From an uncultured Dyadobacter sp. (GTDB lineage: Bacteria > Bacteroidota > Bacteroidia > Cytophagales > Spirosomataceae): a stretch of DNA of 7,300 nucleotides. The notes below the pieces were generated by a model. That model was not told the origin of the DNA. It did no database searches and was given only the letters and a program-made list of their open reading frames with translations. Positions 499 through 7,300 of this stretch are shown piece after piece. The first letter of the stretch is position 1. Every line of letters starts with the position of its first letter. Location of the stretch: positions 1 through 7,300 of the forward strand of contig CAMLNK010000186.1 in assembly GCA_946481035.1 (NCBI GenBank). The letters run 5' to 3'. The position numbers were made by a program, and so were the translations under genes.

Positions 499-1803
499 TC
501 AAATAGCCGGTAACCATCGTTTTACTTCCACGTCGAGCCGGGTGGGATCGTCTGCCGTCACATTAACGAGCTGGAAATGGCTGTTTTCGGTGAGGCTTTT
601 CCAGCGCCAGTCGAGCTGGCTGATTGTCGCAGTTCGCCCGTCGGAAAGCCACCAGGCCGTAAGCAATTCATCGTTCCCCTTTTTCAGACTGCCCACGTAA
701 ACGACGGTACCCGCGACGTGCTTTTTTGAAATGCGGCTCAAATGGTAACCGGAGCCCGTCCAGCACGTAACCGGGCTGTGTTCCGAAGAGTAGAATGCGG
801 GGATGGGCTTAATGTAAACAAGTGCGTGCCCGTTTCTGAACTGGGCGACGCCACTTTGGAGCTGTTGCATTGCGTACCCTTCGGGGACCACAGCTTGCGT
901 ACCTTTTGCTGATCGGATATTGATGGCCGGTTTTTGTAAACAAATGAATGCGCAGGCAGCGAGCAATAGTAAGTGCCCTGGTACCAGGAGCTGTGAGTGG
1001 TTTTTGGCCGGTATTTTCTGTGTAATGATTGTTTTGCCAAAACGGCGGTACGCATACCGAACGATGAATATCAGCGGGGCTGCGACATAAATTATCAGGC
1101 ACGCGATGCCGGCGAAGTCGTGCAGGGCGTTGTCGGGCGCGATGCGCAATAGTACGAGCATGATGATGCGCATGAGGTTTCCGATGGTGTTTAATGCAAA
1201 TGCGAGCAGTATCAAAATTATCTGATAGCCCAAAGGCAGCGTTTTCTGACATTGCAATCGGAAATGCACAATGAGGAAGATCGCTGCCAGCAGCGCAAAA
1301 CCGGTCATTTGGAGACCCATACAGGCAGGTTCGACTGAAAATTCGGCGCCGTTGAGCAGAATGCTGTTGCCTTCGATCGTGACGGGCAGCCCGGCAGCTT
1401 GCAGGAACAACCCGGCGCAGGCGGATATTTGCAGGCGGATCGGGAAGGTGAAAACTTCGGAAACGTACCTGAATATGGGAGAAATGATCAGCAATACCAG
1501 GAAAAAGTACCTGTTGAGTCTTCCGAAGAGGTTTTCTGTCGCGAACAGCAATGCAAAAACCAGCAGCAAAAATCGCCATGAAAGTTCTTGTCCGAAACAG
1601 CAGATCAGAATCAAAATGGCAACCACCGGTGCAAGTCGCCACGACTTTTCGCCCGGAGGAAAACCGCGCAGCAGCATAGGAATAAGCACTACGCCCATCC
1701 AGAATGTGGCATCGGCATTGATATAGCCCTGAACAAAGAAAATTCCCGAAATGCCCAGGTAGGCCGCCGGAAAAGCGGCCCGGACAAGGTTTCTAGTGAA
1801 CAT
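499..1803 (-). CDS. xrtN: Exosortase, XrtN type, with fused EpsI-like C-terminal domain
   Basis: This is a predicted polytopic inner-membrane transpeptidase/protease that cuts a C-terminal PEP-CTERM-like signal; numbering is for a 434-residue product starting at 1803. Residues about 10-255 are a chain of hydrophobic helices. The three residues expected of exosortases are present in order: C161 in EPACMGLQ, R212 in NLMRIIML and H228 in LHDFAG, each at a membrane helix edge. A further helix at about 272-289 leads to a soluble C-terminal domain (about 300-434) containing HSPVTCWTGSGY (342-353). This resembles the conserved HSPxxCxPGxGW segment of EpsI (DUF3485), a partner often found next to or fused to exosortases. 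The XrtN label rests on the neighbour: a VIT-domain protein with its own sorting signal directly upstream, overlapping by 11 bp (ATG within the substrate's final codons). The frame is also open to an ATG at 1863, giving 20 more residues (MNGCSLSC...). I prefer 1803 because that extension is polar, uncharacteristic and lies wholly inside the upstream gene. The exosortase assignment is firm; the XrtN subtype is likely. Confidence 0.88.
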   Translation of the reverse strand: MFTRNLVRAAFPAAYLGISGIFFVQGYINADATFWMGVVLIPMLLRGFPPGEKSWRLAPVVAILILICCFGQELSWRFLLLVFALLFATENLFGRLNRYFFLVLLIISPIFRYVSEVFTFPIRLQISACAGLFLQAAGLPVTIEGNSILLNGAEFSVEPACMGLQMTGFALLAAIFLIVHFRLQCQKTLPLGYQIILILLAFALNTIGNLMRIIMLVLLRIAPDNALHDFAGIACLIIYVAAPLIFIVRYAYRRFGKTIITQKIPAKNHSQLLVPGHLLLLAACAFICLQKPAINIRSAKGTQAVVPEGYAMQQLQSGVAQFRNGHALVYIKPIPAFYSSEHSPVTCWTGSGYHLSRISKKHVAGTVVYVGSLKKGNDELLTAWWLSDGRTATISQLDWRWKSLTENSHFQLVNVTADDPTRLDVEVKRWLPAI

Positions 1804-4339
1804 AATGGCGGAATGTAAAATAGCCGGCGAGCGTGCAGAACAGGATAATGAGCAGCCATTCATGCGGCTCTGGCACAGCTCCCGCCGTTTTCAAGGTTGC
1901 ATTGCCGAGGCTGTTCTTGCTTTTCCGGATGTCGAAGCGGTCATAATCTTCGCGGGTTTCAAGCACCACCATGCTGGAAACGGGTGTTACAATATGTGCC
2001 ATTTCGGCCTCTGCGATCAGTCTTGCATTCGAAATAGAGTCCGTCTGGAAGGCATGGTTGAGAAAGCGGCCGCCTACCTGTTTCATAATGTGGTTGTAGG
2101 CAAAAAGCCTGAGCAAATGGTCGGGCGCGTGGCCGGAAGGCGCTCCTTCGGTTTCACGGATCTGGATATCAGCCCTTTCGATGCTGATAATCGACGGGTC
2201 CGTTTCGGGGTCGGAAGGGAACTGGTTTCGCGAAATCATTTCCTGCAATGCCTTCCAGTCGGTTTTTTCCGCGCGTATGATGCTGAGCTCATTCAGTGAT
2301 TGAATATAGGAAGATACGTCGTCGCCAATCGTGAAGGTACGCAAGCCCTGTGGCGCATGGCTGCTGAGCGTTTTCGAAAATGGCGCATTCGCAAGGTCAC
2401 GAAGCGTCGGCGATACTGCCGTCGACTTGGTAATCAATAATGCGTTTGCAGGATCAGGAATGTATTGCACTGGGAAAAGGGAGAAATTGAATGCGGACAA
2501 TGCTTTAAACTGCTCGTCCTTATTCGCTTCGGTAAGCCTGATCAACCGCTCGTTCGCCACGAATACCGGGCGGTTTCTGACAACCGGCCACAATGCGTCG
2601 AGTTCGCGTTGGGTCCACGCCTGGTTGATGTCGAGGTAATAGGCCTTTGCATTAAAATTTTCAAGTGTTTTATGAAGTGGCTCCACCGTGTAGGTCTTCC
2701 CGCCAAATGCGAAGCTTTCCTCAGTGACGGGCGAGCGTTTAAAGCCGGCATGCCAGGCCGACTGGTAGGTGCCCTGATGAAGGATAATGCCCGGGGATAC
2801 GCTGGTGGGCTCGAACGAAAGATGCGGAGCCTGCATTTCCTTCGGAAAGTCAAGCCGGATGGTTTCGGTAGCTTTTTCGGCTCCCGGGCCTTTGAACCAG
2901 ATGTTTTCATAAACCAGCTGTGCCCCGTCGGCTTTCAGCGGGGTGGTTATGCCGAGCTTAAACTTCCGGTTTTCCTCTGCTGTACAGGGGAATACTTTCA
3001 CTTTTACCATATTTCCCTCCTGCCAATGTACCACGGAAGGATCGCGTGATTCCACGCCGACGATCGTTTTGTAAGCCGAATCGGCCTTGGCTTGTGTCGT
3101 CAGCAGCCCTTTTTCTTCAATGCCATTGATCCACAATGAAAGCGAGCTCACCACTGAGCCTTCGGGGAGAAAGAATGTATAAAGCGCCTCCTCCTGCCAG
3201 CGCGGTGAGCCGGAATGATTGGCAATACTGATGGTTTTTTCCGTGTAGGCGATCCGTATGTGTGGGTAAATGCGCGCCTGCGTGAGCACGTTGGCCGTGC
3301 GCAAGTCGCTGCCCGACCACAGCCTTTCCTGGGTTTCGTGGTGGGAGTCGTAAAGCACATTCAGAATGCTGATCTGCTCTGCGTCCGCTAAGTTGAGTTT
3401 CTGGGTGAAGAAAGAGGCGATCAGAACGAGTGGGTCATGTCTCACGATAATGTCGGTACTGCTGCGTGCGGAGAAGATGCCGCCGGTCTGGGCGAGCTGA
3501 TACACTTTTTTGCCCATGAGTACCCTGCGCGTGATCCAATCATCCTGTACCTGGCGGGCAAGCACCACCCACTCGGGCAAATCGTCGTTTGGGCGCGTAG
3601 CAATGCTATTGGCCTGATATTGCATAGCCATAGTGATCCGGTGCCACTTCACCGAGAAATAAACCGTAATCGCAATTGGGATAACAATGCCGGCCAGTAT
3701 TGCCGGTTTGAACTCGTGCCACCGATGACTGAGCAAGCGGAGGTATGTAGTAGAGAGTAGCAACGGCACAAAACTGTGTGCCGATATTCCCAGCAGGAGC
3801 AGCCCCGGAATACTCAGCAGGTAATAAGGAATGAGATAGAGTGCATAGTAAATCCAAAGCACGGCCGAGCAACCAATCAGGGCAAACAGAATGGATCTGA
3901 GCGAAGGCGGCAGATATTCCTCCCAGGTGAATGCGATGGCCGAAACCCCGGCGATGACAATGGCAAACATCAGCCACGGCGCCGACGGATTGAATACCGG
4001 TAACTCGCGATTCAGCGCAAAGCAGCTGACGAGCCATACGTATCCCAGGAGCAGGCGATGGTGCAGATATTCCGAGCGTTGCTTTTTCCAGAACGCGCGC
4101 AATTTTCCGGCATTCAACAGCCAGACCGTATAAATCGCCGCCAGGAGCCATGGAATGACAAAGGCTGCGTCCGCCAGAGATTTCGTAACCATCCAATAGA
4201 AAATGGAAAAGCTGAATAACAGGCAACCCAGCCCAACTTTGTAGTCGAAATCAAAACGGGGGGTACTTTCAATGTCAGAACCGGTTGTTTCGGGTAGATT
4301 CGGTTCCTGCGGATCATGTACTGTAAATTGTTCCATCAT
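1793..4339 (-). CDS. XrtN-system VIT domain protein with C-terminal sorting signal
   Basis: This 848-residue membrane protein is the probable dedicated substrate of the adjacent exosortase. A polar, acidic N-terminus (1-33) precedes about seven helices (near 35-52, 56-76, 95-109, 121-138, 149-170, 172-200, 213-231). The basic loops KLRAFWKKQR (79-88) and RLLSHRWHEFK (201-211) fall on the cytoplasmic side if the N-terminus is inside. This puts residues 232-827 in the periplasm. A VIT (vault/inter-alpha-trypsin) domain spans about 355-480, with PRWQEEALYTFFLPEG, a WINGIEEKG segment and YENIWFKGP. A VWA-like region follows (about 564-690, YYLDINQAW at 567-575), and then VTPVSSMVVLE (784-794), a motif that usually follows VWA in VIT-VWA proteins. 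The C-terminus is AVPEPHEW, a hydrophobic helix and RHYVH, which is PEP-CTERM architecture. The start is one of two adjacent ATGs (4339 or 4336); no Shine-Dalgarno is seen. It is the first gene of the pair and overlaps xrtN at its 3' end. The biological role of this family is unknown to me. Confidence 0.85.
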   Translation of the reverse strand: MMEQFTVHDPQEPNLPETTGSDIESTPRFDFDYKVGLGCLLFSFSIFYWMVTKSLADAAFVIPWLLAAIYTVWLLNAGKLRAFWKKQRSEYLHHRLLLGYVWLVSCFALNRELPVFNPSAPWLMFAIVIAGVSAIAFTWEEYLPPSLRSILFALIGCSAVLWIYYALYLIPYYLLSIPGLLLLGISAHSFVPLLLSTTYLRLLSHRWHEFKPAILAGIVIPIAITVYFSVKWHRITMAMQYQANSIATRPNDDLPEWVVLARQVQDDWITRRVLMGKKVYQLAQTGGIFSARSSTDIIVRHDPLVLIASFFTQKLNLADAEQISILNVLYDSHHETQERLWSGSDLRTANVLTQARIYPHIRIAYTEKTISIANHSGSPRWQEEALYTFFLPEGSVVSSLSLWINGIEEKGLLTTQAKADSAYKTIVGVESRDPSVVHWQEGNMVKVKVFPCTAEENRKFKLGITTPLKADGAQLVYENIWFKGPGAEKATETIRLDFPKEMQAPHLSFEPTSVSPGIILHQGTYQSAWHAGFKRSPVTEESFAFGGKTYTVEPLHKTLENFNAKAYYLDINQAWTQRELDALWPVVRNRPVFVANERLIRLTEANKDEQFKALSAFNFSLFPVQYIPDPANALLITKSTAVSPTLRDLANAPFSKTLSSHAPQGLRTFTIGDDVSSYIQSLNELSIIRAEKTDWKALQEMISRNQFPSDPETDPSIISIERADIQIRETEGAPSGHAPDHLLRLFAYNHIMKQVGGRFLNHAFQTDSISNARLIAEAEMAHIVTPVSSMVVLETREDYDRFDIRKSKNSLGNATLKTAGAVPEPHEWLLIILFCTLAGYFTFRHYVH
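1796..1879 (-). other. PEP-CTERM-like sorting signal of the VIT protein
   Basis: These bases encode the last 28 residues (821-848): a VPEP motif at 822-825, then HEW, a hydrophobic helix of about 15 residues (LLIILFCTLAGYFTF), and a five-residue tail RHYVH. Motif, helix and short positively charged end are the three parts expected of an exosortase recognition signal. Cleavage at or next to the PEP motif is the known behaviour of such signals and is inferred here. The tail carries one Arg plus two His rather than an Arg-rich cluster. The first codons of xrtN (ATG at 1803) lie within this stretch in another frame. Confidence 0.8.
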
Positions 4340-4465: not shown

Positions 4466-5053
4466 TCAGGGTTTGGGCGGATTGATCATGATATGCGCAC
4501 GGTGCGTGCCCGGGTCCATAATCCACGGCATGCCCGGTACGTCCGGTTTCAATGGTAGCCCGGTGCTTTCGGCAGTCGCAAAGGGAATGTAGACAACATA
4601 GCGCAGGTAACCGTTTTTGAGTGAGCCGGTTGCGGCGTCATAGTTATCCTTCGAGCCGGACAAAACGTATAGGGTAGATGATTGCTTCGGCATTTTCAGT
4701 TTGCCTTCCTTCACTTCCTTTTCGCGGATATCAAAAATCTCTTTCTGGTTCTTACCCTCTTTGGCCAGCACACGGCCCCGCTCCATAAACGCGTCCAGTT
4801 CGGCGAGGTAGCACGAAACGCTGATGTCCTCCTTTTTCGGGTCGTCGGCCAGACAAACGAAGTCGTTACTGCCCTCGCGCAGGATTTTGAATGTACCATC
4901 GGCAGCATAGCCGTACACTTTTGCACCCGCCTGCTTGTCCGACGGTGCGGCCATTACGGCAGTCTTGATCTGCACGTCGGCGGGAAGGATATTCTGGGCT
5001 GAAATCTCAGCGGCGACACAAAGTGCCAGGCAGGAAAAAAAAGTCTTTTTCAT
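4466..5053 (-). CDS. Secreted protein of unknown function (195 residues)
   Basis: I do not recognise this family. Residues 1-20 are a clear Sec signal peptide (MKKTFFSCLALCVAAEISAQ, cleavage after SAQ), so the mature product of about 175 residues should be periplasmic or exported. There is no lipobox at the cleavage site. The mature part is soluble and mixed alpha/beta in appearance. It has two cysteines, C67 and C81 (FVCLADD and VSCYLAEL), that could form a disulfide; a charged, probably helical middle (about 83-120, rich in Lys and Glu); and a Pro-rich C-terminal segment with MPWIMDPGTHRAHIMI at 175-190. That segment looks like a conserved block, and its two His residues could be functional. 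The start at 5053 is the only ATG before the signal peptide; no Shine-Dalgarno is visible. It is transcribed away from the propeller gene and towards the VIT-xrtN pair, 126 bp ahead of it. Nothing in the sequence proves a link to sorting. Confidence 0.75.
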   Translation of the reverse strand: MKKTFFSCLALCVAAEISAQNILPADVQIKTAVMAAPSDKQAGAKVYGYAADGTFKILREGSNDFVCLADDPKKEDISVSCYLAELDAFMERGRVLAKEGKNQKEIFDIREKEVKEGKLKMPKQSSTLYVLSGSKDNYDAATGSLKNGYLRYVVYIPFATAESTGLPLKPDVPGMPWIMDPGTHRAHIMINPPKP

Positions 5054-5180: not shown

Positions 5181-7300
5181 ATGAACCTCAAAAAATCGCT
5201 TATCCTCTTTCCCGCCGGTTGCTTGCTGGCAGGTCTGATGGTCGCCTCTTATCAGCGTTCGAACCCCAGTACGATTGACGCCGCTTCGGCCGATACGCTT
5301 TACAAAGACCTTACGGATGCCCAAAAGCGCTCGTCGAGGTATGCCGTAGCAGGCCTGACGACCGCAAACGGCCTGGAAGCAACCCTGTTCACCTCGGAAC
5401 CGACGATCACCAACCCGACTAACATCGATGTGGATCACCTCGGAAGGGTATGGGTTTGCGAAGCGTATAACTATCGTCCGGCCATTAACGGTAATCCTAC
5501 GAAAAACGAGGGCGACCGCATTGTGGTGCTGGAAGATACCAACGGCGATGGCAGGTCCGATAAATCGACAGTCTTTTACCAGGGGGCCGAGATCAATGCG
5601 CCACTGGGTGTTTGGGTGATGGGTAACAAGGTAATCGTTTCCCAAAGTCCGTACGTGTGGCTCTTTACCGACGAGAACGGCGATTTAAAAGCCGATAAAA
5701 AAGAAGTCATTTTCGAAGGCATCGGCGGCGACCAGCACGACCACGGCATGCACGCATTTGTGTTCGGGCCGGATGGTAAATTGTATTTCAATTTCGGAAA
5801 TGAAGGCGACCGCCTGCTCGACGGAAAGGGTAATCCTGTGGTGGGCAAAGACGGAAAGCCGATCGATTTCTCGAAGCTGAAACAAGGTATGGTCTTCCGC
5901 TGCGATCCTGATTTTACCAATATTGAAGTGCTCGGAAACAACTTCCGGAACAATTTCGAAGTGGCGGTCGATAGCTACGGTACCATGTGGCAGTCCGACA
6001 ACGACGACGATGGCAACAAAGGCGTGCGTATCAACTACGTTATGCAGTACGGCAACTACGGCTACACCGACGAAATGACGGGTGCTGGCTGGCGCGCCAA
6101 CCGCACCAATATGGAAGATTCGATTCCTTACCGTCACTGGCATTTGAACGACCCGGGTGTGGTGCCCAACCTGCTGCAAACCGGCTCAGGTTCGCCTACC
6201 GGTATGGTGGTTTATGAGGGCAAATTACTTCCAAAGGAGTTTTGGGGACAAATGATCCACTGCGAACCAGGGCATAATGTGGTCCGTTCGTATCCTGTTG
6301 AAAAGTCGGGAGCGGGTTATTCTGCCCAAATTGTTAATGTGGTGGACGGCAAACGCGATCAATGGTTCCGGCCTTCGGACGTTTGCGTAGCACCGGATGG
6401 TTCCCTGCTTGTTTCCGACTGGTACGATCCGGCAGTGGGCGGTCACCAGGCAGGCGACCAGGGCAAAGGCCGCATTTACCGCATTGCGCCGGTGAATACC
6501 CCTTACCGCATTCCAAAAACGGATTTTACAACAGTAGCGGGTGCGGTGGAGGCATTACAAAGCCCCAACCTTTCGATCCGTTACCACGCATGGACTACTT
6601 TGAACGGAATGGGTGCCAAGGCCGCACCGACACTTGAAAAGCTTTTTGCGGACAAGAGTGCGGAACCTCGTATGCGTGCCCGGGCATTGTGGCTGCTCAG
6701 CAAATGGCCGTTTACCGCGAAGAAAACCGTCGATCGGGCCATTAAAGATGCCAATTCGGACATTCGCATCGCAGGCCTTCGCGCAGCTTCGGAGTCGAAG
6801 CACCTCGATGTGATTCCTTATATCAAAACATTATCCAAAGACACCGAGCCACAGGTTCGCCGCGAATGCGCATTGCTTTTGCACCACAATCCGTCGACGG
6901 AGGCACCTGCATTGTGGGCAGCCCTCGCACAGCAATATGATGGAAAGGATCGCTGGTACCTCGAAGCCCTGGGAATCGGTGCCGATGCGCAATGGGACTC
7001 GTTCTTTAAGGCATGGCTCGGCAAAGCAGGCGTCAATCCGGTGGCTACGCAGGCCGGTAAGGACATTGTGTGGCGCTCGCGCGGGAAAGAATCGGTTCAG
7101 TTGCTGGCTTCGCTTGCGGGAGATCCTACGGTGGATTTGAAAAGCAGGTTGCGTTATTTCCGCGCATTCGACTTCAATTCGGCAGGTCGTGAAAAATCGA
7201 TGGCATTGCTGAAACTCACCAACGGGTCGGGCAAGGATCAGGACAAAGTAAATGAGCTGGTAATGCGCCACCTCGATCCCGCATTTGTAAAACAGACGCC
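5181..7300 (+). CDS. Secreted PVC-type membrane-bound dehydrogenase-like protein: beta-propeller plus HEAT repeats (3' end cut)
   Basis: The first 706 codons are visible; the gene runs off the right edge. The N-terminus (MNLKKSLILFPAGCLLAGLMVAS) is a signal peptide or membrane anchor, so the protein acts in the periplasm or at the envelope. Residues about 64-437 form a propeller of the 'putative membrane-bound dehydrogenase' type (Pirellula/Verrucomicrobium family, related to sugar/sorbosone dehydrogenases). Typical segments are GLEATLF, NIDVDHLGRVWVCEAYNYR (from about 79), GGDQHDHGMH (182-191) and GKGRIYRIAP. Two acidic loops, DTNGDGRSD (119-127) and DENGDLKAD (164-172), resemble EF-hand-like calcium sites. 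From about residue 455 on there are helical HEAT-type repeats (for example RMRARALWLLSKW and IRIAGLRAA). Family members often end in a c-type cytochrome domain (CxxCH); none is visible here, and it would lie beyond base 7300. The in-frame stop at 5139 and the signal peptide fix the start at 5181. Oxidation of a sugar or polyol with electron transfer to cytochrome is inferred from the family name, not shown; the real substrate is unknown. Confidence 0.88.
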   Translation, partial: MNLKKSLILFPAGCLLAGLMVASYQRSNPSTIDAASADTLYKDLTDAQKRSSRYAVAGLTTANGLEATLFTSEPTITNPTNIDVDHLGRVWVCEAYNYRPAINGNPTKNEGDRIVVLEDTNGDGRSDKSTVFYQGAEINAPLGVWVMGNKVIVSQSPYVWLFTDENGDLKADKKEVIFEGIGGDQHDHGMHAFVFGPDGKLYFNFGNEGDRLLDGKGNPVVGKDGKPIDFSKLKQGMVFRCDPDFTNIEVLGNNFRNNFEVAVDSYGTMWQSDNDDDGNKGVRINYVMQYGNYGYTDEMTGAGWRANRTNMEDSIPYRHWHLNDPGVVPNLLQTGSGSPTGMVVYEGKLLPKEFWGQMIHCEPGHNVVRSYPVEKSGAGYSAQIVNVVDGKRDQWFRPSDVCVAPDGSLLVSDWYDPAVGGHQAGDQGKGRIYRIAPVNTPYRIPKTDFTTVAGAVEALQSPNLSIRYHAWTTLNGMGAKAAPTLEKLFADKSAEPRMRARALWLLSKWPFTAKKTVDRAIKDANSDIRIAGLRAASESKHLDVIPYIKTLSKDTEPQVRRECALLLHHNPSTEAPALWAALAQQYDGKDRWYLEALGIGADAQWDSFFKAWLGKAGVNPVATQAGKDIVWRSRGKESVQLLASLAGDPTVDLKSRLRYFRAFDFNSAGREKSMALLKLTNGSGKDQDKVNELVMRHLDPAFVKQT

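Follow-up and report, generated by a model that had tools for sequence, protein, structure and literature searches.

We analysed a stretch of 7,300 nucleotides from an uncultured Dyadobacter sp. (contig CAMLNK010000186.1; hereafter the window), which carries on its minus strand a gene for exosortase N (xrtN) and, overlapping it, a gene for a VIT domain protein that ends in a sorting tail. In the relatives examined the system consists of one enzyme and one tagged protein, encoded in a 4-kb unit that is missing from close relatives at the same site. We read the two proteins as a dedicated enzyme-substrate pair in which XrtN would cut its partner at a PEPHEW motif and then transfer the ectodomain to an acceptor in the cell envelope, a reading that we consider evenly poised between right and wrong. 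Many exosortase systems have many substrates, and this pair is a good setting for learning what these enzymes do and what they attach to the C terminus of a substrate after cutting it. Added here are a genome-level test of the one-substrate arrangement, a second type of substrate, a heavy-chain-like fold and a natural set of deletions.

The pair is already catalogued as the XrtN/VIT system of Bacteroidota annotation, as the original prediction had recognised. Against TIGR04476 (cut-off 200) the window XrtN reaches 340.6 bits, and against TIGR04477 (cut-off 250) the VIT protein reaches 868.3 bits, so both lie far above the curated cut-offs, side by side, and nothing in the window differs from that system. 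These scores, together with conservation over 29 loci, rule out chance for the gene pair. The VIT gene lies directly upstream of xrtN, and the 11-bp overlap that had been claimed (1793-1803) is correct if the ATG at 1803 is the start of xrtN; the longest open reading frame would begin at 1863, and the 434-amino-acid form matches an identical public protein (cluster P0001). Among named relatives, those closest to the VIT protein come from Dyadobacter sp. BIN28 and D. fermentans JDP9, at 81% identity. The triad had been described as intact, and C161, R212 and H228, which we take to be the exosortase Cys/Arg/His triad, are invariant in 41 of 41 XrtN sequences. A tail of VPEP motif, helix and basic end had also been described; the motif (PEPHEW, 823-828) and the helix (modelled at 825-847) stand, but the end, FRHYVH, is weakly basic. 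A literature search turned up no paper on XrtN itself. For a cyanobacterium, loss of an exosortase was reported to lower one PEP-CTERM protein approximately 92-fold in the exoproteome (PMC12188702).

Tail and enzyme were found to coincide in two samples, 295 genomes of the Bacteroidia (the class sample) and 48 genomes of Dyadobacter. XrtN exceeds its cut-off in 14 of the 295 (18 at E 0.001, the extra four being below cut-off). TIGR04477 does so in 12, all of them among the 14 and all with XrtN next door; at E 0.001 it is matched in 46 of the 295. Outside the 12 these matches are partial, and many are confined to the VIT region. A tail profile (A1) was built from 19 tails, many of its rows drawn from the genomes searched, and was run on the class sample with at most 27 candidates scored per genome, a search in which other kinds of signal would be missed. 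At E < 1e-6 it gave one match in each of 16 of the 295 genomes, namely the 14 with XrtN and two others (G152 and G248); the next match reached only E 0.013, in a frame of 43 amino acids. XrtN occurs in 11 of the 48 Dyadobacter genomes, and the same 11 have the tail, once each, at E 4.2e-12 or better (next match E 0.06). Throughout the samples searched, the A1 tail at E < 1e-6 occurs only beside XrtN or XrtN-like enzymes, and besides the window a tail-bearing neighbour is present in 29 of 29 XrtN loci examined, L005 being counted by its last fragment. The original prediction held that many other sorting signals, or VIT homologues lacking the enzyme or the tail, would speak against a dedicated pair. 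Among relatives we found one tail per XrtN genome, both in the 14 of the class sample and in the 11 of Dyadobacter, and PEPxxW ends 120 of 120 VIT homologues among the matches listed (1000 matched). The classical PEP-CTERM family (PF07589) gave nothing over its cut-off in 27 XrtN genomes, which is a weak test, and at E 0.001 the VIT protein of the window has no match to it. A search for other exosortase genes, proposed as a check, gave a mostly simple answer: by PF09721, XrtN is the sole exosortase of 22 of 28 XrtN genomes, including 11 of 11 in Dyadobacter, but six (G133, G180, G194, G208, G228 and G271) have one or two extra matches, in frames of 86-224 amino acids, three of them over the cut-off. 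This count also covered G152 and G248, and the positive control, Methanocaldococcus jannaschii, gave a match.

In the relatives examined, the claim of a single dedicated substrate holds for the number of tails per genome but not for the kind of protein that bears them. The bearer is a TIGR04477-type protein in 26 of the 29 loci; in the other three (L080, L083 and L236, two from the class sample and the third from a search within the order of L080) the XrtN-adjoining tail sits on another body, which starts like a signal peptide and has both a VIT and a vWA domain, the latter with an intact metal motif (D[VI]SGS). TIGR04477 matches these proteins over its last 27-34 positions only and does not cover their loci. 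They share the VIT and vWA body with TIGR03788 (marine proteobacterial sortase target), against which they score 417.5, 383.2 and 418.1 bits, below the cut-off of 551.65; that family is named for sortase, an unrelated enzyme, whereas these proteins have an exosortase tail. The tail is constant and the body is not, and the VIT body of the TIGR04477 type is not the sole XrtN substrate type. Because the same tail occurs beside XrtN on a different body, its movement between two VIT-protein architectures shows that the tail is what the enzyme follows, and it offers a soluble test substrate. As a second XrtN substrate type, VIT-vWA proteins appear to be unrecorded in the NCBIfam models scanned.

Elsewhere the VIT-vWA body seems to be a recurrent exosortase substrate. 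Among the 120 best listed of 7722 homologues of the L080 protein, a simple rule assigned PEPHEW to 16, a different PEP signal with a helix to 6 and some other terminal helix to 3; the remaining 95 had none of these features. TIGR03788-like bodies occur at E 1e-30 in 14 of the 295 genomes, with the tail on just two, those beside XrtN; three of the twelve tail-less bodies extend past the fetched stretch, where the tail search found none. Some of the remaining bodies end, by eye, in a TonB C-terminal domain or a part like those of the type IX secretion system (T9SS), and Pfam lists PF03544 for many L080 homologues. In L146, L147 and L154 the bodies continue into long parts, barrel-like by eye, whose ends lie outside the fetched stretch. 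Six VIT-vWA proteins (P0205, P0227, P0228, P0244, P0263 and P0283) end in other PEP signals followed by a helix.

AlphaFold2 models of the two window proteins (mean predicted local distance difference test score, pLDDT, 86.0 for the VIT protein and 82.7 for XrtN) give the VIT protein eight N-terminal helices, which may be read as seven crossings and one re-entrant helix, and an ectodomain with the VIT and vWA fold of the inter-alpha-inhibitor heavy chain that stops about 20 residues ahead of PEPHEW. The modelled fold resembles that of ITIH1, an animal protein without an exosortase; the window protein differs in that its C-terminal joining is putative and its metal site altered, window-type proteins having DxNxxW (D570 in 54 of 54 homologues, N572 in 49 and W575 in 54) in place of an intact DxSxS. 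In animals, heavy chains are described as losing a C-terminal pro-domain as the C terminus is esterified to the N-acetylgalactosamine (GalNAc) of chondroitin sulfate (PMC7170535). Judged by basic-residue counts, the VIT ectodomain and PEPHEW face the periplasm, and so do the C161 loop, the H228 loop and the C-terminal domain of XrtN.

From the computed gene pairing, invariant triad, coincidence of tail and enzyme and modelled fold we infer a topology, a cut, a thioester, a transfer and an acceptor. The VIT protein would be inserted in the inner membrane through about seven N-terminal helices with its heavy-chain-like ectodomain in the periplasm, and its last helix would bring PEPHEW next to XrtN on the outer side of that membrane. 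Cleavage of the tail by XrtN is putative and drawn from analogy, in which it is very likely that Cys161, aided by Arg212 and His228, would cut at or next to PEPHEW. The ectodomain would be held as a thioester on XrtN as the last helix is released, and an acceptor, a lipid or glycan headgroup, would resolve the thioester; the C-terminal domain of XrtN may position this acceptor. The ectodomain would thus end up with a covalent tie at the C terminus and with its N terminus still in the inner membrane. Archaeosortases and exosortases are akin, and archaeosortase A has more than one substrate. For archaeosortase A, an active-site cysteine and the attachment of a lipid to the C terminus of substrates after processing are described, a lipid acceptor is proposed, and in a model that its authors call speculative a lipid amine resolves the Cys-bound intermediate (PMC7157517). 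A modelled fold of the heavy-chain kind that ends about 20 residues before PEPHEW, beside an enzyme of a transferring kind, leads us to favour transfer over both a simple cut and export. The bolder proposal, that XrtN is a bacterial heavy-chain transferase that cuts shortly past the fold and joins the new C terminus to an envelope glycan or lipid, is offered tentatively and would more readily be overturned than upheld. If it is true, bacteria and animals came independently to link one and the same VIT-vWA fold by its C terminus, and the polytopic type of the window would form a covalent bridge between the inner membrane and the rest of the envelope.

The alternative that survives best, though we think it rather unlikely, is a proteolytic switch. 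XrtN would only remove the last helix, and the ectodomain, tied at both ends, would be freed at one and change its shape or partners, for example by signalling through the membrane domain. This fits a substrate that, once cut, would still be anchored in the inner membrane by about seven helices, and it fits a regulated envelope response, as genes for an HTH_34-type regulator (about 100 amino acids) and a membrane protein (about 210 amino acids) adjoin the pair, upstream and on the same strand, in 5 of 15 groups outside Dyadobacter (Pedobacter, L074, L075, L076 and L082), joined in Pedobacter by CreD, an inner-membrane protein. A switch sits less well with a tail on proteins that have just a signal-peptide-like start, which the cut would free into the periplasm. 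VIT-vWA bodies elsewhere that end in a TonB C-terminal domain (by Pfam) or in T9SS-like or barrel-like parts (by eye) look as if C-terminal attachment were needed, which also weighs against it, and archaeosortase A is regarded as a transferase (PMC7157517). Neighbourhoods had been put forward as a place to look for a conserved third partner; the regulator and membrane protein recur as described, but no partner gene is common to all groups. The regulators of L006 and L074 were assigned by an HTH_34 match, and the others by similarity. CreD lies between these genes and the VIT gene in three Pedobacter loci and was confirmed in L007 and L008. The upstream genes (L006:7563-9949, with CreD, and L074:12852-13796) and the pair could possibly form an envelope-stress operon.

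Classical exosortase export, in which the tail would send the protein to the cell surface or to exopolysaccharide as proposed for PEP-CTERM proteins, is improbable in our judgement. It accords with the PEP-helix-basic pattern of the tail and could hold for the signal-peptide type of substrate. In F. johnsoniae, xrtF and an associated neighbouring gene are reported to matter for the colonisation of surfaces and for biofilm (PMC10936215), so exosortases of Bacteroidota are capable of acting on the surface. Against export, we read the window substrate as a polytopic protein of the inner membrane; Haft (2006) describes one integral membrane family as an exception among PEP-CTERM proteins (PMC1569441). 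The window is also without exopolysaccharide genes. The original prediction saw neither these nor another sorting-signal protein, and a Pfam/NCBIfam scan of the three other long open reading frames agrees, with no sorting or polysaccharide-synthesis family among their matches. The frames at 2-517 and 5181-7298 gave esterase-type and PVC-type matches, and the frame at 4466-5053 gave none at E 0.001; its product, of 195 amino acids, looks secreted and occurs in 45 of the 48 Dyadobacter genomes.

Two of these neighbours, the upstream gene for the 195-amino-acid protein and the esterase gene, mark the site of the pair within Dyadobacter. The 195-amino-acid protein is matched in 35 of 37 XrtN-negative genomes, and in all 35 an esterase gene directly follows its gene after a gap of 29-721 bp. 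Counting the window there are 12 positives, and in 11 of them the two genes are 4.0-4.2 kb apart with the pair between them; the twelfth, L093, has no match to the 195-amino-acid protein. Presence and absence on a tree of the flanks take nine changes, at least six when counted by starred branches (a quick method). The last 32-42 bp of xrtN persist at the right place in three of the 35 negatives (G313, G305 and G339). Their scores of 39, 59 and 42 exceed the highest that 100 shuffles of each gave (23, 28 and 23), and the pair was therefore deleted there; the next-best negative scored 24, which is not above its own shuffles. These scars of the 3' end of xrtN sit between the 195-amino-acid gene and the esterase gene (loci L200, L203 and L204). 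The pair diverges faster than its flanks: between the window and L002 the flanks are 95% identical, the VIT protein 81% and XrtN 75%, with synonymous divergence of similar order. Nonsynonymous divergence (dN) of the pair is approximately 2-19 times that of flanking genes in the pairs compared, and its ratio to synonymous divergence (dN/dS) is approximately 0.1-0.2 for both genes, which places both under purifying selection. Between L001 and L002 the proportion of synonymous differences (pS) is discordant, 0.286 for the VIT gene and 0.675 for xrtN, which suggests recombination or reassortment between the two genes in these cassettes; that the tail is retained despite this discordance counts in favour of cutting and transfer. 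In Dyadobacter sp. CY261 (L005:9965-12534) the VIT gene is split over three frames beside an open xrtN, which is either a decaying pair or a sequencing error. A non-functional or decaying pair that persists in Dyadobacter by chance is very improbable, since its absence from 37 of 48 genomes, the scars in three of them, the split gene and the raised dN are set against a retained triad and PEPxxW and purifying selection on both genes.

Features of the xrtN/VIT pair in the window, with coordinates in nucleotides
Feature	Coordinates	Strand	Basis
xrtN, exosortase N, 434 amino acids	499..1803	-	TIGR04476 340.6 bits, PF09721 56.8 bits
XrtN C-terminal domain, residues 301-434	502..903	-	invariant P344, C347, W348, G352, W384, W385, R400
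Exosortase (EpsH) transmembrane domain, residues 50-246	1066..1656	-	PF09721 match
His228 codon	1120..1122	-	invariant in 41/41 XrtN
Arg212 codon	1168..1170	-	invariant in 41/41 XrtN
Putative catalytic Cys161 codon	1321..1323	-	invariant in 41/41 XrtN
XrtN-system VIT domain protein, 848 amino acids, putative substrate	1793..4339	-	TIGR04477 868.3 bits
Sorting tail GAVPEPHEW-helix-RHYVH, residues 820-848	1796..1882	-	tail profile A1
PEPHEW motif, residues 823-828	1856..1873	-	sequence
Ectodomain, inter-alpha-inhibitor heavy-chain-like, residues 343-799	1943..3313	-	modelled fold
Altered vWA metal-site motif DxNxxW, residues 570-575	2615..2632	-	homologue conservation
VIT domain, residues 362-462	2954..3256	-	PF08487 35 bits, cut-off 26.5
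N-terminal membrane domain, residues 31-247	3599..4249	-	8 modelled helices; basic-residue counts, 54 homologues

The C-terminal domain of XrtN is possibly a periplasmic, distantly EpsI-like domain. Its HSPxxC presumably resembles the EpsI motif. PF11984 (DUF3485), which we take to represent EpsI, gave no match to the C-terminal fragment of the window XrtN even at E 10. Across the 295 genomes there were eight sub-threshold PF11984 matches (cut-off 26.1 bits), two of them within xrtN (G083 and G194, 17.5 and 17.0 bits); the top one (19.2 bits, G127) is not inside an xrtN gene. Fusions of EpsI to exosortases are described by Haft (2006) (PMC1569441).

Two further families resemble the window substrate. 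The VIT protein scores 69.4 bits against MSEP-CTERM (TIGR04286), below the cut-off of 150; those proteins have a VIT region and a C-terminal tag in common with it, but the tag is MSEP and not VPEPHEW. MSEP-CTERM proteins probably pair with exosortase K. The TIGR02921 integral PEP-CTERM protein has a VIT region and a PEPEEW or PEPHEW tail as in XrtN substrates, but its body is of a different family. In G152 and G248 it bears the A1 tail; the protein scores 425 bits in the first and 629.2 bits in the second against the TIGR02921 cut-off of 200, and the adjoining XrtN-like exosortases score 67.3 and 56.7 bits against the XrtN cut-off of 200. A sister system is seen at L086:7511-11603 and L087:7160-11420, where TIGR02921 proteins with PEPEEW or PEPHEW tails stand beside XrtN-like exosortases that score under the XrtN cut-off.
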